From Hydrogenophaga sp. A37 (GTDB lineage Bacteria; Pseudomonadota; Gammaproteobacteria; Burkholderiales; Burkholderiaceae_C), in the NCBI RefSeq assembly GCF_002001205.1, contig NZ_MUNZ01000073.1, positions 22,906 through 86,905 on the forward strand: DNA of 64,000 nt, written 5' to 3'. The notes below the pieces were generated by a model. That model saw only the letters and a list, made by a program, of their open reading frames with translations, did not search any database and was not told where the DNA came from. The translations under genes were made by a program, and so were the position numbers. Positions 48,100 to 54,688 of this stretch are shown piece by piece. The number at the start of each line of letters is the position of its first letter. The first letter of the stretch is position 1.

Positions 48100-48237
48100 G
48101 GCGCGCGTTCCGGGGGAACGACCCTGGACCCGGCGATGTACACCGAGCTCAAAGGCCAAGTCGACGAAGACATCTGGAACGAGGGCGGACGCCGCCGCTG
48201 AGCGGCTGCCGGCCCTGTGTCGCGTTATGCTGGCGCC

Positions 48238-48939
48238 ATGAGCCCGAACCCCTCCATCCAGCTTCGCGAATTCGTCACCGGTGGTGACCCCGCCGCCCAG
48301 CCCGCGGCCAGCATCATCGTGCTGCATGGCCTGGGCGCCGACGGCAGCGACTTCGTGCCTATTGCGCAGGAGCTTGACCTCAGTGCCATCGGCCCGGTGC
48401 GCTTCGTGTTCCCCAACGCGCCGGTGCGGCCGGTCACGATCAATGGCGGGTACGAGATGCGTGCCTGGTACGACATCCATCCGCCCAGCACCGACCCCGC
48501 CATCCCACGCCATGAAGACGAGGCGGGCCTGCGCGGTGCCCAGGCCATCGTGCAGGCCCTGATCGACCGCGAGACCGGGCGCGGCGTGCCGCCCGAGCGC
48601 GTGGTGGTCATGGGCTTCTCTCAGGGCTGCGTCGTCACGCTCATGGCCGGGCTGCGCGCGCCTCAGCGGCTGGCCGGGCTGGTGGGGCTCTCAGGCTACC
48701 TCGCACTGGCCGAGCACACCGCCACCGAAGTCCACCCCGCGAACCGCGCCACGCCGATCTTTCTGGCCCACGGCGAAGAAGACGACGTGGTGGTCATGGA
48801 GCGCGGCACCGCGGCCCGCGACGCGCTGACATCGCTCGGTTACGCGGTGGAGTGGCACAGCTACCCGATGGGGCACTCGGTGTGCCCCGAAGAGGTGACC
48901 GACCTCAACGCCTGGTTGGTGGCCCGCCTGGGCGCCTGA
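48238..48939 (+). CDS. Carboxylesterase/phospholipase-family alpha/beta hydrolase (paralogue 1)
   Basis: 233 residues. Nucleophile elbow GFSQGCVVTL, oxyanion segment VLHGLGADGSDF, the Asp in HGEEDDVV and His in PMGHSV. Substrate unspecified; family members hydrolyse short esters or acyl-thioesters. It is roughly half identical to the gene at 53972. The pair flanks the CRISPR-Cas locus. Confidence 0.87.
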   Translation: MSPNPSIQLREFVTGGDPAAQPAASIIVLHGLGADGSDFVPIAQELDLSAIGPVRFVFPNAPVRPVTINGGYEMRAWYDIHPPSTDPAIPRHEDEAGLRGAQAIVQALIDRETGRGVPPERVVVMGFSQGCVVTLMAGLRAPQRLAGLVGLSGYLALAEHTATEVHPANRATPIFLAHGEEDDVVVMERGTAARDALTSLGYAVEWHSYPMGHSVCPEEVTDLNAWLVARLGA

Positions 48940-48945
48940 GGCGCT

Positions 48946-50592
48946 TCAGTCCTGCACCAGAGATCGCAGCGCTTCCAGCGTCATTGGTGGCTGTTCCGAG
49001 TGCGCCAGACGGTGGCAATTGGCGCACAGCACCGCCACATCGGCCAGCGTGGTCACCCGTTCGCCGCCATCGGCCACAGGGTTCAGGTGGTGAACGTCGA
49101 GCTGGCTGTCCACCCTCGGCGTGAACCCGCAGGCCATGCAGCGGCGGCCATGGTGAGCCAGGGCCGCACGGCGCACCGCAGGGTCGCGCTCAGCGCGTGA
49201 CAGCACCAGCTCCGAGCGCGCGCCTTCGGTGAAACCGATGCGCTGCTGCCATGCCGCGCGAAAGCGTTCTGGCACAAACCCCGCCACCTGCTTCCAGCGT
49301 TCATCGAGGATGTGGACCGTGCACACCGCGTCGGGGGACCGCAGCCCCCGGCCAATGACCTGCCGCATCCGGCGCACCGCCGTGTTGCGGGTGTCCACGT
49401 AGCGGCTCTCGGTGTGGCCGTCGATCACCACGGGCCTCTCAAACGGTATGCGTGGCACCACGATGTGTTGCCAGATCACCGGCGTGTCCAACCCTGCCCA
49501 GGCAGCGGTGGCCACCAGCGTGCGGCTCGGCCCCATGCGCGCTGCCGCCGCACTGACGGTTTCGTCTGCCTGGCGCACGGTGGCGCCGGGCAGCCGCTCA
49601 CCCAGGGCCCGCGCCAGCGCGTGGCTGGGCGTGACCACCAGCACCGTGCCCGTGGCTTCGGCCTGGCGCACACACTGCGTCACCGCCTCCAGCCAGGCCT
49701 CCGTGTCCACCTGAAGGTCCGACACGCGGAAGGTCAGCGCGCCGTGGCGCGCGGGCTCCAGGCTGCCCGAGTGCGCGCTCTGTTCACCGATGCCCATGGC
49801 GCGCTTGAAATCGTCCATACGGCCCGCCACCGAAAGCGTGGCGCTGATGAAGGCCACCGCTGGCCGGTTCGCCAGCTTGCGCAGCAGGCGCCCGGGCAAC
49901 TGGTGGTGCAGGGCAAGCCCCCCATCGTCCGTGAAACCCACCCGCTGGTACCAGGCGGGCTCGGCCAGCGCGTCCTGCATCAACAGGGCAGCGGCGCGCA
50001 CCTCCGACTCGGCCCGCGTGTCGGCAACCACCGCCGCCAGCGCAGCTGCGGTGTCTGTGGCGTTGATGCCCAGCGCTTGCAGCGCAGCGGTCGTGATCTC
50101 TCGGTCGCTTTGCAGGGCGGCGGCGTCGGGCAGTTGGTCTGCCTCGTCAAAGATCAGGTAGTCCCGGGTGCTCGCGCCGTTGTAGGCGCCGCCCAGCCGC
50201 TGGTCGATGATCAGCGCCGCGCTGGTGCACACCATCACCCCGGCCGCCATCGCCTCCGCCCGGTGGGCCTTGTGGTCGGCGGGGCGTTCAAACCAGCGCG
50301 CTGGTCGAAAGGCCGCTACCGCCACCCCAGGCCGCCGGGTGGCGCTCATGTCGCTGGAGGCCATCAACTGATCGATGAGCTGGTGGCTCGGCAGCGCGAT
50401 GGCAATGCGCTGGCCTTCTGACGCCGCGTGCATCGCGGCGGCCAGCACCGCGCGCGTCTTGCCCAGGCCGGTGCTGCCTTCCAGCAGCAAGGGGGCGTCG
50501 GGCGCCGCCATGTGGCGCGCGAGGACGGCGTGGAAGTTGGCCTGGTCGGCTGAGCGAAACAGGCTGTGGAGGTCGTTGGCTTGGGCTCGCAT
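48946..50592 (-). CDS. csf4: Type IV CRISPR DinG-family helicase with C-terminal HNH nuclease domain
   Basis: 548 residues. The helicase part has Walker A GSTGLGKT (39-46), DEAD (149-152), the SAT motif (250-252) and motif VI QVIGRGLRS (411-419). The Fe-S cysteines of housekeeping DinG are missing, as expected of the type IV CasDinG (Csf4) group. Residues ~475-535 form an HNH domain: C485-x2-C488, His501-His502, then C523-A-N-C526-H527. A standard CasDinG only unwinds DNA; the HNH domain would add cutting. It lies last in the cas operon, after the array. Confidence 0.88.
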   Translation of the reverse strand: MRAQANDLHSLFRSADQANFHAVLARHMAAPDAPLLLEGSTGLGKTRAVLAAAMHAASEGQRIAIALPSHQLIDQLMASSDMSATRRPGVAVAAFRPARWFERPADHKAHRAEAMAAGVMVCTSAALIIDQRLGGAYNGASTRDYLIFDEADQLPDAAALQSDREITTAALQALGINATDTAAALAAVVADTRAESEVRAAALLMQDALAEPAWYQRVGFTDDGGLALHHQLPGRLLRKLANRPAVAFISATLSVAGRMDDFKRAMGIGEQSAHSGSLEPARHGALTFRVSDLQVDTEAWLEAVTQCVRQAEATGTVLVVTPSHALARALGERLPGATVRQADETVSAAAARMGPSRTLVATAAWAGLDTPVIWQHIVVPRIPFERPVVIDGHTESRYVDTRNTAVRRMRQVIGRGLRSPDAVCTVHILDERWKQVAGFVPERFRAAWQQRIGFTEGARSELVLSRAERDPAVRRAALAHHGRRCMACGFTPRVDSQLDVHHLNPVADGGERVTTLADVAVLCANCHRLAHSEQPPMTLEALRSLVQD

Positions 50593-50738
50593 GGTGCCGA
50601 GTATCGCGAAACGCCGTGCGGTACAGGCTTGGGTAAGGGCGGTGGCATTGCTGATTCCCAGCGTCGTCGTTGGATTTTTAGCAGTTCGTTGCTACTCCTT
50701 GGCTTGTCCTCGGTACGTGCTCGCGCACAGAGAATCAA

Positions 50739-51100
50739 TTTTCAGTAGCCGCCCGTTTACCGGTCGGCTTGGAGGTACACAGCATTCAAGCGCGGTGAGT
50801 ACACCTTCTAGTCGCCACCCTTCTATAGGGCGGCTTGGACAGTGCCGGCATGCTTCTGCTCCGTCGTTCCCTTCTAGTAGCCACCCTTTTGCAGGGCGGC
50901 TTGGACAGGCAAAGACGGCACCAAGCGTTTCAGCCACTTCTAGTAGCCACCCTTTCCGCGGCTTGGACCAACAGGCTGATCATGGTGGCCGGCGACTACT
51001 TCTAGTAGCCACCCTTTTACAGGGCGGCTTGGACCGAGTTCGACACGATGTAGTCAGCGGTGTACTTCTAGTAGCCACCCTTTTACAGGGCGGCTTGGAC
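50739..51100 (-). CRISPR. CRISPR array: six 36-nt repeats, five 30-nt spacers
   Basis: Repeats at 50739-50774, 50805-50840, 50871-50906, 50937-50968 (32 nt, 4-nt loss), 50999-51034 and 51065-51100. All five spacers are exactly 30 nt. On the minus strand the repeat reads GTCCAAGCCGCCC, TGTAAAA, GGGTGGCTACTAGAAG; GCCGCCC pairs with GGGTGGC (one G-U), which gives the hairpin for Cas6. Repeats at the right end are identical while those on the left decay, so the leader side is the right and transcription follows the minus-strand cas genes. Only 43 bp separate the array from csf2. Confidence 0.95.
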
Positions 51101-51143
51101 CTCAATGGCGTGACTCTGAAGGGAAAAACCGCTTCTGTGCAGC

Positions 51144-52115
51144 TCAAAAACGGGTGACCTGCGCTGGCTGGAACCCTCCCACCGAGACCGTTTTCAACAA
51201 CTTCCCCTCAGCGTCAAAAAACTGGAACAGGCCCGCGACCTCGCCGCAGCCCCGGGCGCTGTGCGCGCCGAGCAGAGGGCGCTGGCTCAGGGCGTCCAGT
51301 GCGTGGTCGAGCAGCTCCAGATCGCGCTCGCGCGCCGCGTCGATCACCAGCCGCCCGCTCAGGGGCAGGCCAGCGGGCAGGGCGTGGTGTTGCACGATGG
51401 TGCGGGTGCTGTTCTGCATGTCGCCCATGGCGTCCTTGAACTGGGCTTCTTCGGCCTTGGCCAGCGCCAGCGAGCGGGCGACGTCTTCGGGCACGGCTTC
51501 GCCCTTCTTATCCAGGCGCCTGACCTGTCCCTCCAGCTGTTTGACGAGCGCGGCCGCAGCGGCCCGCCGGTTGTTGTTGTCGCTCCGGCTGGCGAAGGCT
51601 TGCAGGTCGGCGGGGTCCATGAGGTCCAGCGCTTCTTCGGTGTCGTCCAGGTCTTTGCGAACGCCGGTGAAGGCCTCGGGCAACACGTTCACCGCTGGCA
51701 TGAAGTGGCCGACTTTGAGCCGCGATTTGATGCCCAGCCCGCTGCCGAAGAGGTCGAGCACGGCGTTGGCCTCGCGCGCCTGCCGCAGGGCGAGCAGGTC
51801 GATGTCGCCCGCCTGCTTCTCGCTCTCGGCGTCCTGGCCGATCATTTCGCTGTAGATCTGCGGCAGCTTGTAAGGCTTGCCGGCTTCGGCGGCGGCGCGC
51901 ATGTTGCGCAATGTCGCAGCGCGCCGCAGGAAGCCGCGCAGGGTGGTGGCGGGCAGGTAGCCCGTTTGCAGGCGGTTGCCGGTGTCGTCCACCCCGCGGG
52001 TCATGACGGGAAAGTTGTCAAAGGCGTTTTCGCGGCCGCCCTCGGACTTGGGCATGCGAATGGAGAGCGGCCCCACGGTGGTGAGGGTGGCGTTGATGAC
52101 GATGCGTGGGTTCAT
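51144..52115 (-). CDS. csf2: Type IV CRISPR Cas7-like protein Csf2
   Basis: 323 residues. MNPRIVINATLTTVGPLSIR at the start, then GRENAFDNFPVMTRGVDDTG and LQTGYLPATTLRGFLRRAA fit the Csf2 (Cas7) family, the backbone subunit that coats crRNA. AGGAGGAC precedes the ATG at 52115. The C-terminal LLGAHSARGCGEVAGLFQF is the closing strand region. It ends 43 bp before the array and follows cas6 by 26 bp. Confidence 0.85.
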   Translation of the reverse strand: MNPRIVINATLTTVGPLSIRMPKSEGGRENAFDNFPVMTRGVDDTGNRLQTGYLPATTLRGFLRRAATLRNMRAAAEAGKPYKLPQIYSEMIGQDAESEKQAGDIDLLALRQAREANAVLDLFGSGLGIKSRLKVGHFMPAVNVLPEAFTGVRKDLDDTEEALDLMDPADLQAFASRSDNNNRRAAAAALVKQLEGQVRRLDKKGEAVPEDVARSLALAKAEEAQFKDAMGDMQNSTRTIVQHHALPAGLPLSGRLVIDAARERDLELLDHALDALSQRPLLGAHSARGCGEVAGLFQFFDAEGKLLKTVSVGGFQPAQVTRF

Positions 52116-52141
52116 GGTGTGTCCTCCTGTGTTGGCGAGAT

Positions 52142-52642
52142 TCAGATTTCGAGCAGGCCCATGCCGAAGGCCTTGCCCACGCGGCCGATGCCGGTGGCCA
52201 GGGCCTGGGCGAGGAGCGCTGCGTCGGTGACTTTGAGCACCCCGGTGAAGTGGCTGGCGTCGATCCAGAAGCGCCTGCCCCCGGCGGCGCTGACCTGCAG
52301 GCGGTCTGCCGTCACGTGCACGGCCATGACGGCAAAGCCGTGTTTGACACCTTCGGTTTCCAGCCATTCGCGGCGGCTGCGCCAGTCGCCCAGCTCGGGG
52401 TAGATGTTTTTTCCGCCCTGGCGCCTGGCGGCACAGGCCTGGAGTTCAAAGGCCAGCAGGTCGCCACCGGCGGGGGCTTTCACGCGCTTGCCGTTCGCCG
52501 TGAGCGGTTTTTCGGTGCGCACCAGCAGGTGGTCGCCGTGGTCGGCAAACAGCGCGGGGCTGCCGTCCACCAGCTCGGCCACCAGCCGGTGCAATGGGTA
52601 GCCGGCGGTGCGCGCAGGCTTGGGAATGGTGTGGTCGATCAT
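52142..52642 (-). CDS. cas6: Cas6-like crRNA endonuclease
   Basis: 166 residues from ATG 52642, which overlaps the preceding stop and has GGAGGA seven bases ahead. The N-terminal YPLHRLVAELVDGSPALFAD and the C-terminal glycine-rich loop GIGRVGKAFGMGLLEI are of Cas6e/Csf5 form. His18, His35 and His38 are candidates for catalysis. It should cut the repeat hairpin to release crRNA. A longer ATG (52663) is in frame but less likely. Confidence 0.82.
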   Translation of the reverse strand: MIDHTIPKPARTAGYPLHRLVAELVDGSPALFADHGDHLLVRTEKPLTANGKRVKAPAGGDLLAFELQACAARRQGGKNIYPELGDWRSRREWLETEGVKHGFAVMAVHVTADRLQVSAAGGRRFWIDASHFTGVLKVTDAALLAQALATGIGRVGKAFGMGLLEI

Positions 52643-53094
52643 GCGGGGGTCCTCCGTTTCCAAAGGGCTTTCTGAATGCCGCCAGATTCCGGCGACGGGG
52701 CTTCGTTCCAGTTGAAGGTTTCAACGCCTGCGGGTGAACAGATGCGAACGGCGCGCTTGTCCACGGTGAGAAACAGGTGGGCAATGGGCACGGGCGCTTT
52801 GTCGAACATGAGGAAGATGCGGGGGCTCTTTTCGTCCCAGTGCGCCAGCTCGTCCAGAAAGGCCTCGACCCGGGTGCGTTCGTCGAAGTGCAGATGGGCG
52901 GCCGCGAGCTTGAGCTGCACGCTGGAGGTGCCGGGCCGCACGATGGCCCAGCCGGACGACAAGCGGCTTTCGCTGCCTTTGGCGAGCCGGTGGTTGCTGC
53001 TCAGGGCTCGCGCGGTGGCGTCGTGGGGCGATTCGTGGCCGATGGCGACGAGGTGGCGACCGAAGTGTTCGTTGAAGAATTCGAAGGTGTTCAT
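52639..53094 (-). CDS. Unassigned 151-residue protein in the cas operon (Csf1-position)
   Basis: 151 residues from ATG 53094, overlapping csf3 (ATGA) and cas6, so it is translated with them. Type IV-A loci normally have csf1 (Cas8-like, with zinc-finger cysteines); this protein has one Cys and no finger, and I cannot match it to Csf1 by eye. Visible segments are LSSGWAIVRPGTSSVQLKLA and IAHLFLTVDKRAVRICSPAG. It may be a reduced large-subunit analogue, a small subunit, or a new component. Confidence 0.6.
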   Translation of the reverse strand: MNTFEFFNEHFGRHLVAIGHESPHDATARALSSNHRLAKGSESRLSSGWAIVRPGTSSVQLKLAAAHLHFDERTRVEAFLDELAHWDEKSPRIFLMFDKAPVPIAHLFLTVDKRAVRICSPAGVETFNWNEAPSPESGGIQKALWKRRTPA

Positions 53095-53738
53095 GCCACC
53101 CCCTGTGGCACGAAGCACACGGCCCGGTTGGTGGGATGCCAGTAGGCCGGCCGCCAGGCGGCGTCGGCTTTGAGAGCGGTGCCGTTGCCTGCGAACAGGT
53201 CGATGGGCACAGGGCGCAGCGGGTCGCCGAAAGGGCCGACCACGCCGTCCAGTTCGTCGGGCTCGATGCGCATGCCGGTGACTTGACCGAACCCGCTGGC
53301 TCGGCGTTTGCCAATGAAGCTCACGCCGCTGAGCAGCCGTTCGACCTGGGCGCTATCGCCTTGGGCGTACCAGGTCACCTCGGGCGTGGCGATGGCGCGG
53401 TAGCTGTTCATCACCGCGCCAAACTCGCGGCGCCGGGTGAGGCCGAGTTTGGTGTGCGGTTGGCCTTGCTTGTTCTGCGCCACCAGATCGATGTCCAGAT
53501 CGTGCGAGGCGCGCAGGTTGGCAACGAAACTCACCCGCTGCGTGTCCCATGGCTCGAAGATGGCCGCGCTGCCGTGCCACAGGCCCTGGGTGTTTTTCAG
53601 GGGTATCTGGCTGTGGGCCTGCTCCAGATCGTCGGTCGCCTCGTAGATCAGCGCCGCGAGCAAGGCGTCGAGCGTCATGTAGCCGCCATTGACGACCAGC
53701 GGGCTGCCCAAAGACAGGGTCAGTCGAAATCGATCCAT
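53091..53738 (-). CDS. csf3: Type IV CRISPR Cas5-like protein Csf3
   Basis: 215 residues. RLTLSLGSPLVVNGGYMTLD and ALLAALIYEA match the Csf3 start, and the glycine-rich RAMP loop is GKRRASGFGQV (143-153). Cas5-like proteins cap the crRNA 5' handle. A strong GGGAGGA lies ahead of the ATG, and it is the first cas gene; the operon promoter is expected between 53739 and 53971, a gap with no other gene. Confidence 0.82.
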   Translation of the reverse strand: MDRFRLTLSLGSPLVVNGGYMTLDALLAALIYEATDDLEQAHSQIPLKNTQGLWHGSAAIFEPWDTQRVSFVANLRASHDLDIDLVAQNKQGQPHTKLGLTRRREFGAVMNSYRAIATPEVTWYAQGDSAQVERLLSGVSFIGKRRASGFGQVTGMRIEPDELDGVVGPFGDPLRPVPIDLFAGNGTALKADAAWRPAYWHPTNRAVCFVPQGVA

Positions 53739-53971
53739 CTGCTATGTCCTCCCTCTGTATGGCCTGACTGGCCCGTGCCATCCTAACCAATCGGGTGTCC
53801 GGCGCTGGTTGGGGTATTGCCGTCTCGGCCGCTTCCAGCACTTGAGATCAACGCGCTGGTAATCGTGGCCATGTGGCGTTTGTTTGTGAAATCTGCATCC
53901 GTGTGCAACCACAGGGCCGTTGATGGCCCGTTTCGTTTCATCGGTGGTCGGCGGGCGCTTATGCTGGGCCG

Positions 53972-54688
53972 ATGTATGCGCCAGATTCATTGCCCCAGAC
54001 CATCCAATTGCAGGAGTTCGTGACCGGACGCGATCCGTCCGCCACGCCCGTGGCCAGCCTCATCGTGTTGCACGGGCTGGGCACCGAGGGGAGTGACTTC
54101 GTGCCCCTGCTGCGCCACATGGACCTGTCGGCCGTGGGTCCGGTGCGCTGCGTGTTCCCCGATGCGCCCACGCGAACCATGAGCTTCAACGGCACCGACA
54201 TGCACGCCTGGTACGACGCCGCGCCACCCGCGGCGTCGCGCCATGCGTCCCAGCCGGCGGACGAGGCGGGCCTGCGTGCCTCCCAGCGCTTGGTTCAGAC
54301 CCTGATCGAGCGGGAACAGGCGCAGGGCATGCCGTCCGAGCGCATCGTGCTCATGGGCTTTTCGCAGGGCGCCGTGCTCGCCTTGCAGACCGGCCTGCGT
54401 GCGCACCAGCGCCTGGCCGCGATCGTGGCGCTCTCGGGCTACCTGCCCCTGGGCGCTCGCACCCTGCAGATGGAGTCGAACATCGCCAACCAGCGCCTGC
54501 CCATCTTCCTGGCGCATGGTCAGCAGGACGAGGTGGTCGCCATCGACCGCGCCCGTGCCGCACGCACCGTGCTGCAGGTCATGGGCCACCTCGTGGACTG
54601 GCACCTCTACGACATGGGCCACGAGGTGAGCGACGCCGAGCTGGCCGACATCAGCGCCTGGCTCACGGGCGTGCTGAGCGTGGTCTGA
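53972..54688 (+). CDS. Carboxylesterase/phospholipase-family alpha/beta hydrolase (paralogue 2)
   Basis: 238 residues. Same architecture as the gene at 48238: VLHGLGTEGSDFVPLLR, elbow GFSQGAVLAL, HGQQDEVVA and the terminal His in DMGHEV. Divergent from csf3 across 233 bp. It and its paralogue read in the same direction on either side of the cas locus. Confidence 0.87.
   Translation: MYAPDSLPQTIQLQEFVTGRDPSATPVASLIVLHGLGTEGSDFVPLLRHMDLSAVGPVRCVFPDAPTRTMSFNGTDMHAWYDAAPPAASRHASQPADEAGLRASQRLVQTLIEREQAQGMPSERIVLMGFSQGAVLALQTGLRAHQRLAAIVALSGYLPLGARTLQMESNIANQRLPIFLAHGQQDEVVAIDRARAARTVLQVMGHLVDWHLYDMGHEVSDAELADISAWLTGVLSVV

Follow-up and report, generated by a model that had tools for sequence, protein, structure and literature searches.

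A chromosomal type IV-A CRISPR-Cas operon with an HNH-bearing CasDinG in Hydrogenophaga sp. A37, most likely directed against phages

The subject of this study is a compact CRISPR-Cas operon of Hydrogenophaga sp. A37, found at positions 48946–53738 of a 64,000-nucleotide stretch of contig NZ_MUNZ01000073.1 (hereafter the window, to which all positions refer) and consisting of five intact open reading frames (ORFs) on the minus strand together with an array of six repeats, as and where a first-pass annotation of this DNA had described them. Judged by its sequence it is a type IV-A operon of the CasDinG-HNH variant, located on the chromosome, and it very probably serves as an anti-phage defence in which RNA-guided unwinding of the target is combined with cutting. 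The HNH variant and its mechanism are already published and the locus adds a further member; what is new here is a bare insertion of about 4.9 kb, the match of spacer 3 to phages together with two matches from a marine relative, and the codon phase of the spacers.

The genes follow the order cas5-cas8-cas6-cas7-array-dinG-HNH. The product of cas5 (csf3; 53091..53738, minus strand, 215 amino acids (aa)) matches the PADLOC profile Csf3_0_IV (E 1.3e-49) and, among sequences of the Protein Data Bank (PDB), Csf3 chain 7xfz_B (E 3.2e-8), while its match to NCBIfam csf3 (E 1.6e-11) lies below the cut-off of that family. That of the Cas6e-like cas6 (52142..52642, minus strand, 166 aa) is recognized by PADLOC Cas6_5_IV (E 8.8e-71) and Pfam CRISPR_assoc (6.7e-16), and that of cas7 (csf2; 51144..52115, minus strand, 323 aa) by PADLOC Csf2_0_IV (E 8.5e-59), Pfam RAMPs (8.8e-5) and PDB chain 8rc2_A, a Csf2 (E 7.4e-8). 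With the helicase gene casDinG-HNH (48946..50592, minus strand, 548 aa), which matches a PADLOC Csf4 profile, four of the five proteins are thereby assigned to Csf3, Cas6, Csf2 and Csf4, and the fifth is without a family match. No cas3 or cas9 is present among the five operon genes, a genome-wide search for these two not having been made.

The identification as type IV-A with an HNH-bearing DinG, proposed in the first-pass annotation, is carried by the CasDinG-HNH protein: PADLOC Csf4_2_IVA1 (E 1.7e-198) spans residues 1–548, the HNH domain lying within the match, and Pfam HNH PF01844 is found at residues 485–533 (E 4.5e-7). Its structure model (mean predicted local distance difference test, pLDDT, 82.7) has CasDinG 8s35_M as the best Foldseek match (E 1.9e-23). 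The Walker B residues are D149/E150 and those of the HNH domain H501, D518 and H527; in 25 aligned DinG-HNH sequences, our own included, D149/E150, H501, H502, H527 and four cysteines that are likely zinc ligands (C485, C488, C523 and C526) are invariant, and D518 and N525 are conserved in at least 90%. The spacing of H501/D518/H527 equals that of H497/D514/H523, and the spacing of D149/E150 that of D139/E140, in the protein of Sulfitobacter sp. JL08, a comparison made from the published residue numbers rather than by aligning that protein's sequence. For the Sulfitobacter system, the part of PMC10910872 drawn on here reports that mutating H497/D514/H523 or D139/E140 abolished interference, that directional degradation of double-stranded DNA was demonstrated biochemically, and that the PAM (protospacer-adjacent motif), the processing of CRISPR RNA (crRNA) and the requirement for all five proteins were likewise demonstrated. 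The supposition that this DinG could cut the DNA that it unwinds thus describes what its homologue has been seen to do, and with the HNH and Walker B residues conserved the Hydrogenophaga member would probably cleave DNA as well.

Type IV-A1 and IV-A3 systems of Pseudomonas oleovorans, P. aeruginosa and Klebsiella pneumoniae have homologues of Cas5, Cas6, Cas7 and DinG in common with this operon, but their DinG lacks the HNH domain which is present here (PF01844). In these systems unwinding by DinG blocks transcription, and canonical type IV-A is described as nuclease-independent (PMC11519345, in the passages used here), so the Hydrogenophaga system might likewise silence its targets without cutting them, its HNH domain being silent or of minor effect. 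We regard this as very unlikely, given HNH residues that are invariant or nearly so, the loss of interference upon HNH mutation in the Sulfitobacter homologue, and an experiment in which the Sulfitobacter HNH domain grafted onto PoCasDinG led to genomic deletions of 18–47 kb (PMC12714560, as excerpted). Under the preferred reading of unwinding coupled with cutting, the array would be transcribed from its cas7 side and Cas6 would cut at each repeat hairpin; Cas7 subunits would hold the 30-nucleotide (nt) crRNA, with its PAM end occupied by Cas5 and a shortened Cas8. Beside a 5'-YCN PAM the complex would open the DNA, CasDinG-HNH would load onto the displaced strand and move 5'-3', and its C-terminal HNH domain would cut both strands, resulting in Cas3-like shredding accomplished with other parts. 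Type I systems with Cas3 also place a helicase and a nuclease that shred the target behind a Cascade-like complex, but according to the available text of PMC10910872 the helicases of the two systems share only a remote ancestry and their nucleases none, and the operon contains no cas3.

That phages are the targets is indicated by spacer 3 (50907..50936, minus strand). The spacers of the window were searched in viral_contigs with patterns leaving every third base free, and spacer 3 matched 22 viral contigs with 25–29 of 30 bases identical, one of them (L049) being identical at positions 1–29. The target lies within a C5 DNA methyltransferase gene of phages (phrog_116, E 2.1e-95 in L034), which gives substance to the defensive role put forward earlier. 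The sequence also occurs in four of 299 genomes of the same bacterial family, one occurrence being the array itself, hence in three of 298 others; an integrase gene lies within a few kb in both of the two copies examined. Two further protospacers come from the array of L007, a marine relative (Rhodobacteraceae): its spacer 4 matches the reductase gene of Roseobacter phage CRP-738 (26/30, flank CCC), and its spacer 7 matches Pastis, a phage of another host, Erwinia, in the major capsid gene (27/30, flank CCG). The flank immediately upstream (5') of the spacer 3 copies is CC(G/A), namely CCG in 17 of 25 and CCA in 8 of 25, and the three independent protospacers fit a 5'-YCN PAM, which for the own array rests on one spacer and otherwise on the two from L007. 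By eye, the phage C5 methyltransferases (L032, L040 and L048) have a repeated 'PL.T(V/I)T' motif in the middle of the protein, with the spacer target among its units.

Several observations weigh against the anti-phage reading. The 25 copies of the spacer 3 target are homologous and therefore constitute one PAM observation. A target was found for only one of the five spacers, spacers 1, 2, 4 and 5 matching no viral_contigs with the degenerate patterns, and the five spacers searched singly in INPHARED gave chance-level matches only (E 0.6 or more). Spacer 3 itself matches three records of a plasmid collection, from Klebsiella and Enterobacter, at 26/30 (E 0.1); in the one of these examined the gene is not a methyltransferase, and a weaker plasmid match, in Methylibium, lacks the methyltransferase motif. 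With one mismatch allowed, spacer 2 was found across the 299 family genomes in the array itself only. The relatives' arrays contain 95 spacers, six of which were compared with a public collection: with every third base free, L004_s8 and L002_s15 matched none of the viral_contigs, INPHARED contained no match for L004_s8 or L007_s6, the best INPHARED match of L010_s3 (E 0.2) was not counted, and L007_s4 and L007_s7 gave the INPHARED matches to CRP-738 and Pastis described above.

Most type IV-A systems reside on plasmids and target plasmids, and a system chiefly serving competition among plasmids, as is thought for most of type IV, would agree with this background and with the weak 26/30 plasmid matches. 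We give this explanation the least credence of all: the consistent target of spacer 3 is a phage methyltransferase gene, those of the two L007 spacers are phage genes too, for a reductase and a capsid protein, and although 154 records of the plasmid collection match parts of DinG-HNH, none of the 154 covers 80% of the protein.

The state of the array adds a last point against active defence. It occupies 50739..51100 (minus strand), with five spacers, all of 30 nt, and repeats of 36 nt except for repeat 3 (50937–50968), which has 32 nt and has lost four stem bases of its stem-loop. Repeats 1 and 2 are identical and repeats 3–6 diverge from them, predicted hairpin energies being -17.7 kcal/mol for repeats 1, 2 and 4, -16.7 for repeat 5, -13.7 for repeat 6 and -9.6 for repeat 3. 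Because the repeats decay towards dinG, the leader end probably adjoins cas7, and the array looks old. The absence of cas1, noted earlier for the locus, extends to the whole assembly: no match was found in the genome (G000; 195 contigs, completeness 100), in a search whose control was positive in nine of 14 genomes; of the 14 relatives' genomes six contain cas1, as do 117 of the 299 from the family. Any acquisition of new spacers would therefore depend on outside help, and a degenerate array in a genome without cas1 may represent a stalled memory.

The operon might accordingly be regarded as a decaying relic, once active and now frozen or partly dead, in which crRNA processing or acquisition has failed and old spacers remain; the divergent repeats, the partial loss of the hairpin in repeat 3, the missing cas1 and the occurrence of full-length DinG-HNH in this one genome of 67 from the genus are all compatible with this. 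We consider it rather improbable, though less so than the two alternatives above, since the five ORFs are intact with their catalytic residues conserved, repeats 1 and 2 are identical, and CRISPR arrays commonly decay at their far end. The lack of cas1 is shared with most of the 14 relatives' genomes, including that of L004 (Pelomonas sp. UHG3), where no cas1 was found and yet the array is long, with 21 nearly uniform repeats.

The chromosomal location claimed for the operon holds, since a contig of 5,605,460 bases is represented in the 90% cluster of the DinG-HNH protein and since the operon separates two esterase genes that lie side by side in relatives. These Abhydrolase_2 paralogues, which mark the site and lie outside the system, are esterase A on the left (48217..48939, plus strand; PF02230, E 4.1e-46) and esterase B on the right (53972..54688, plus strand; PF02230, E 4e-38). 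They are adjacent in the four genomes of the genus with clear orthologues of both (G047, G001, G020 and G059), with 135–146 bp between the esterase matches and esterase B 81–89% identical; in G013 the pair is adjacent too (115 bp), the second gene being less clearly esterase B. The matches are 5041 bp apart in G000. Alignment to these empty sites delimits an inserted segment at 48940..53866 (approximate ends, no strand assigned) of about 4.9 kb, in which the operon and nothing else was seen, its ORFs including neither an integrase nor a transposase. The gap takes differing cargo: where G000 has the CRISPR operon, three other genomes have a chemoreceptor (MCP) gene, namely G040 (esterase B 85%) and, with weaker esterase B matches, G014 and G007.

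As full-length DinG-HNH is absent from the other 66 genomes of the genus searched, the operon was probably gained within its genus; eight of these have weak matches to the protein, lying on the HNH side in seven and within the helicase portion in one. A wider protein search gave 425 matches at E<=0.001, of which the best 120 comprise the query and 119 others that are 51–70% identical over at least 93% of DinG-HNH. A scan of genome_contigs gave 14 loci, while none was found in viral_contigs. The gene order of the Hydrogenophaga operon recurs in relatives L001–L003, L007, L010 and L012, and a second order, cas6-cas7-array-cas5-cas8-dinG-HNH, was seen in L004 and L009, which are complete, and in L005, cut at its start. 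On the Pseudomonas paraeruginosa plasmid NZ_CP027167.1 (L174, 4327–10493), the annotation places a RAMP protein, Cas6/Csy4, a DinG-like helicase and a type I-F cas1 in one operon.

The fifth gene (52639..53094, minus strand, 151 aa) had no family match in Pfam, PADLOC and NCBIfam profile searches, and its position and predicted fold make a shortened cas8 (csf1) the most likely identity. Its model resembles chains 8rc2_G, 8rc3_G and 7xg1_A (240–263 aa), which we read as Cas8, in a fold comparison that leaves room for families outside its listed matches. The Cas8-like profile, searched against PDB sequences, gave no match (best E 1.3), PDB searches with Cas7, Cas5 and Cas6 left chain G unnamed, and no Csf1 is annotated at the Pseudomonas plasmid locus, which was examined for such a sequence. 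The protein contains a single cysteine, C119, its sole invariant one in 32 aligned sequences, so that this compact Cas8 would lack a PAM-reading zinc finger; in type IV-A1 and IV-A3, by contrast, a zinc finger of Cas8 reads the PAM. Type IV-A2 is defined by the absence of Cas8 (Csf1), in the available passages of PMC11519345; here a Cas8-like gene is indicated by position and by fold, through chains that are putatively Cas8.

The spacers of these arrays also show a bias with respect to codon phase. From 12 arrays (that at 50739–51100 and those of L001–L005, L007–L010, L012 and L014), 91 of 100 spacers were used, nine being dropped as duplicates or not of 30 nt. Their GC content at indices 0, 1 and 2 modulo 3 is 0.54, 0.56 and 0.77, a phase reached by none of 20000 random-phase shuffles, and a codon model puts a weight of 0.786 in frames with the wobble base at index 2, mostly antisense (0.56). 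A YCN PAM was rejected as the cause, since against an observed GC contrast of 0.218 random YCN protospacers in phage genes (200 draws of 91) gave a mean of -0.013 and a maximum of 0.053, with 0.34 in phase. AAG draws (200) come nearer (mean 0.144, maximum 0.227), but no trinucleotide puts more than 0.545 in phase and the protospacers located carry CCN. The pool for the draws comprised 22 related phage loci with 71 ORFs, which weakens the codon-phase reading.

Control arrays from the same bacterial family (35 arrays from 40 regions) were assigned from repeat sequence and length to what we take to be nine I-C, 17 I-F and nine II-C arrays. The contrast is 0.121 for 381 I-C spacers (TTC draws, mean 0.128) and 0.098 for 329 I-F spacers (NCC draws, mean 0.075, maximum 0.125), so that their own PAMs roughly account for the bias; the 345 II-C spacers have a bias of 0.09 in another index class. 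The phase lock of CasDinG-HNH spacers is thus about double that of the I-C or I-F spacers from this family. Index 2 falls on the wobble base in the two L007 protospacers, and also in that of spacer 3, whose frame gives no independent support because the search pattern presupposed the phase.

Type IV-A complexes deflect every sixth base of the target (PMC11519345, as excerpted), and the corresponding spacer indices 5, 11, 17, 23 and 29 are within the wobble class. It is conceivable, if doubtful, that CasDinG-HNH arrays hold codon-phased memories, in which the unpaired sixth base would sit at a wobble position and synonymous escape mutations would be tolerated. Against this, leader-near and far halves of the arrays are alike (0.80, n=48, and 0.77, n=43), the arrays of L003 and L007 have no GC contrast (-0.087 and 0.014), the in-phase weight has a wide bootstrap range (0.585–0.93) and every second wobble base remains paired; a longer PAM or another bias is a possible cause. 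No prior report of codon phase in CRISPR spacers was on point in the literature searched. VIPR guides skip wobble bases, in the available part of a preprint (PMC13142463): guide positions that go unread fall there, as the spacer phase may suggest for the present arrays. Those guides use a tandem repeat code, whereas this is an ordinary CRISPR array.

Among described systems the closest is that of Sulfitobacter sp. JL08, with which the HNH variant was first described by Altae-Tran et al. in 2023 (PMC10910872, in part); the name CasDinG-HNH and the gene order of the operon are given in the portion of PMC11981726 consulted, and a chromosomal homologue from Nordella sp. HKS 07 is also in the literature. 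The five components, gene order, C-terminal HNH domain, catalytic spacing, 30-nt spacers and, for the protospacers found, the 5'-YCN PAM are shared with Sulfitobacter, while the Hydrogenophaga operon, known from sequence alone, differs in host lineage, in its decayed six-repeat array and in its esterase-pair site. The PAM of P. oleovorans and K. pneumoniae is instead 3'-TTN-5' on the target strand, as given in PMC11519345. With the variant published and at least 119 other proteins 51–70% identical, the locus is less novel than the earlier remark on HNH-bearing CasDinG suggests.

The short Cas8, seemingly without a zinc finger, raises the question of what reads the YCN PAM. The codon-phase lock, if true, would protect arrays of this type inherently from escape by synonymous mutation, as the accessible text of PMC13142463 reports for the guides of VIPR. 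The operon itself would represent a chromosomal member of the DNA-cutting branch of type IV, and with evidence that the spacers of such systems face phages, a role in defence becomes testable.

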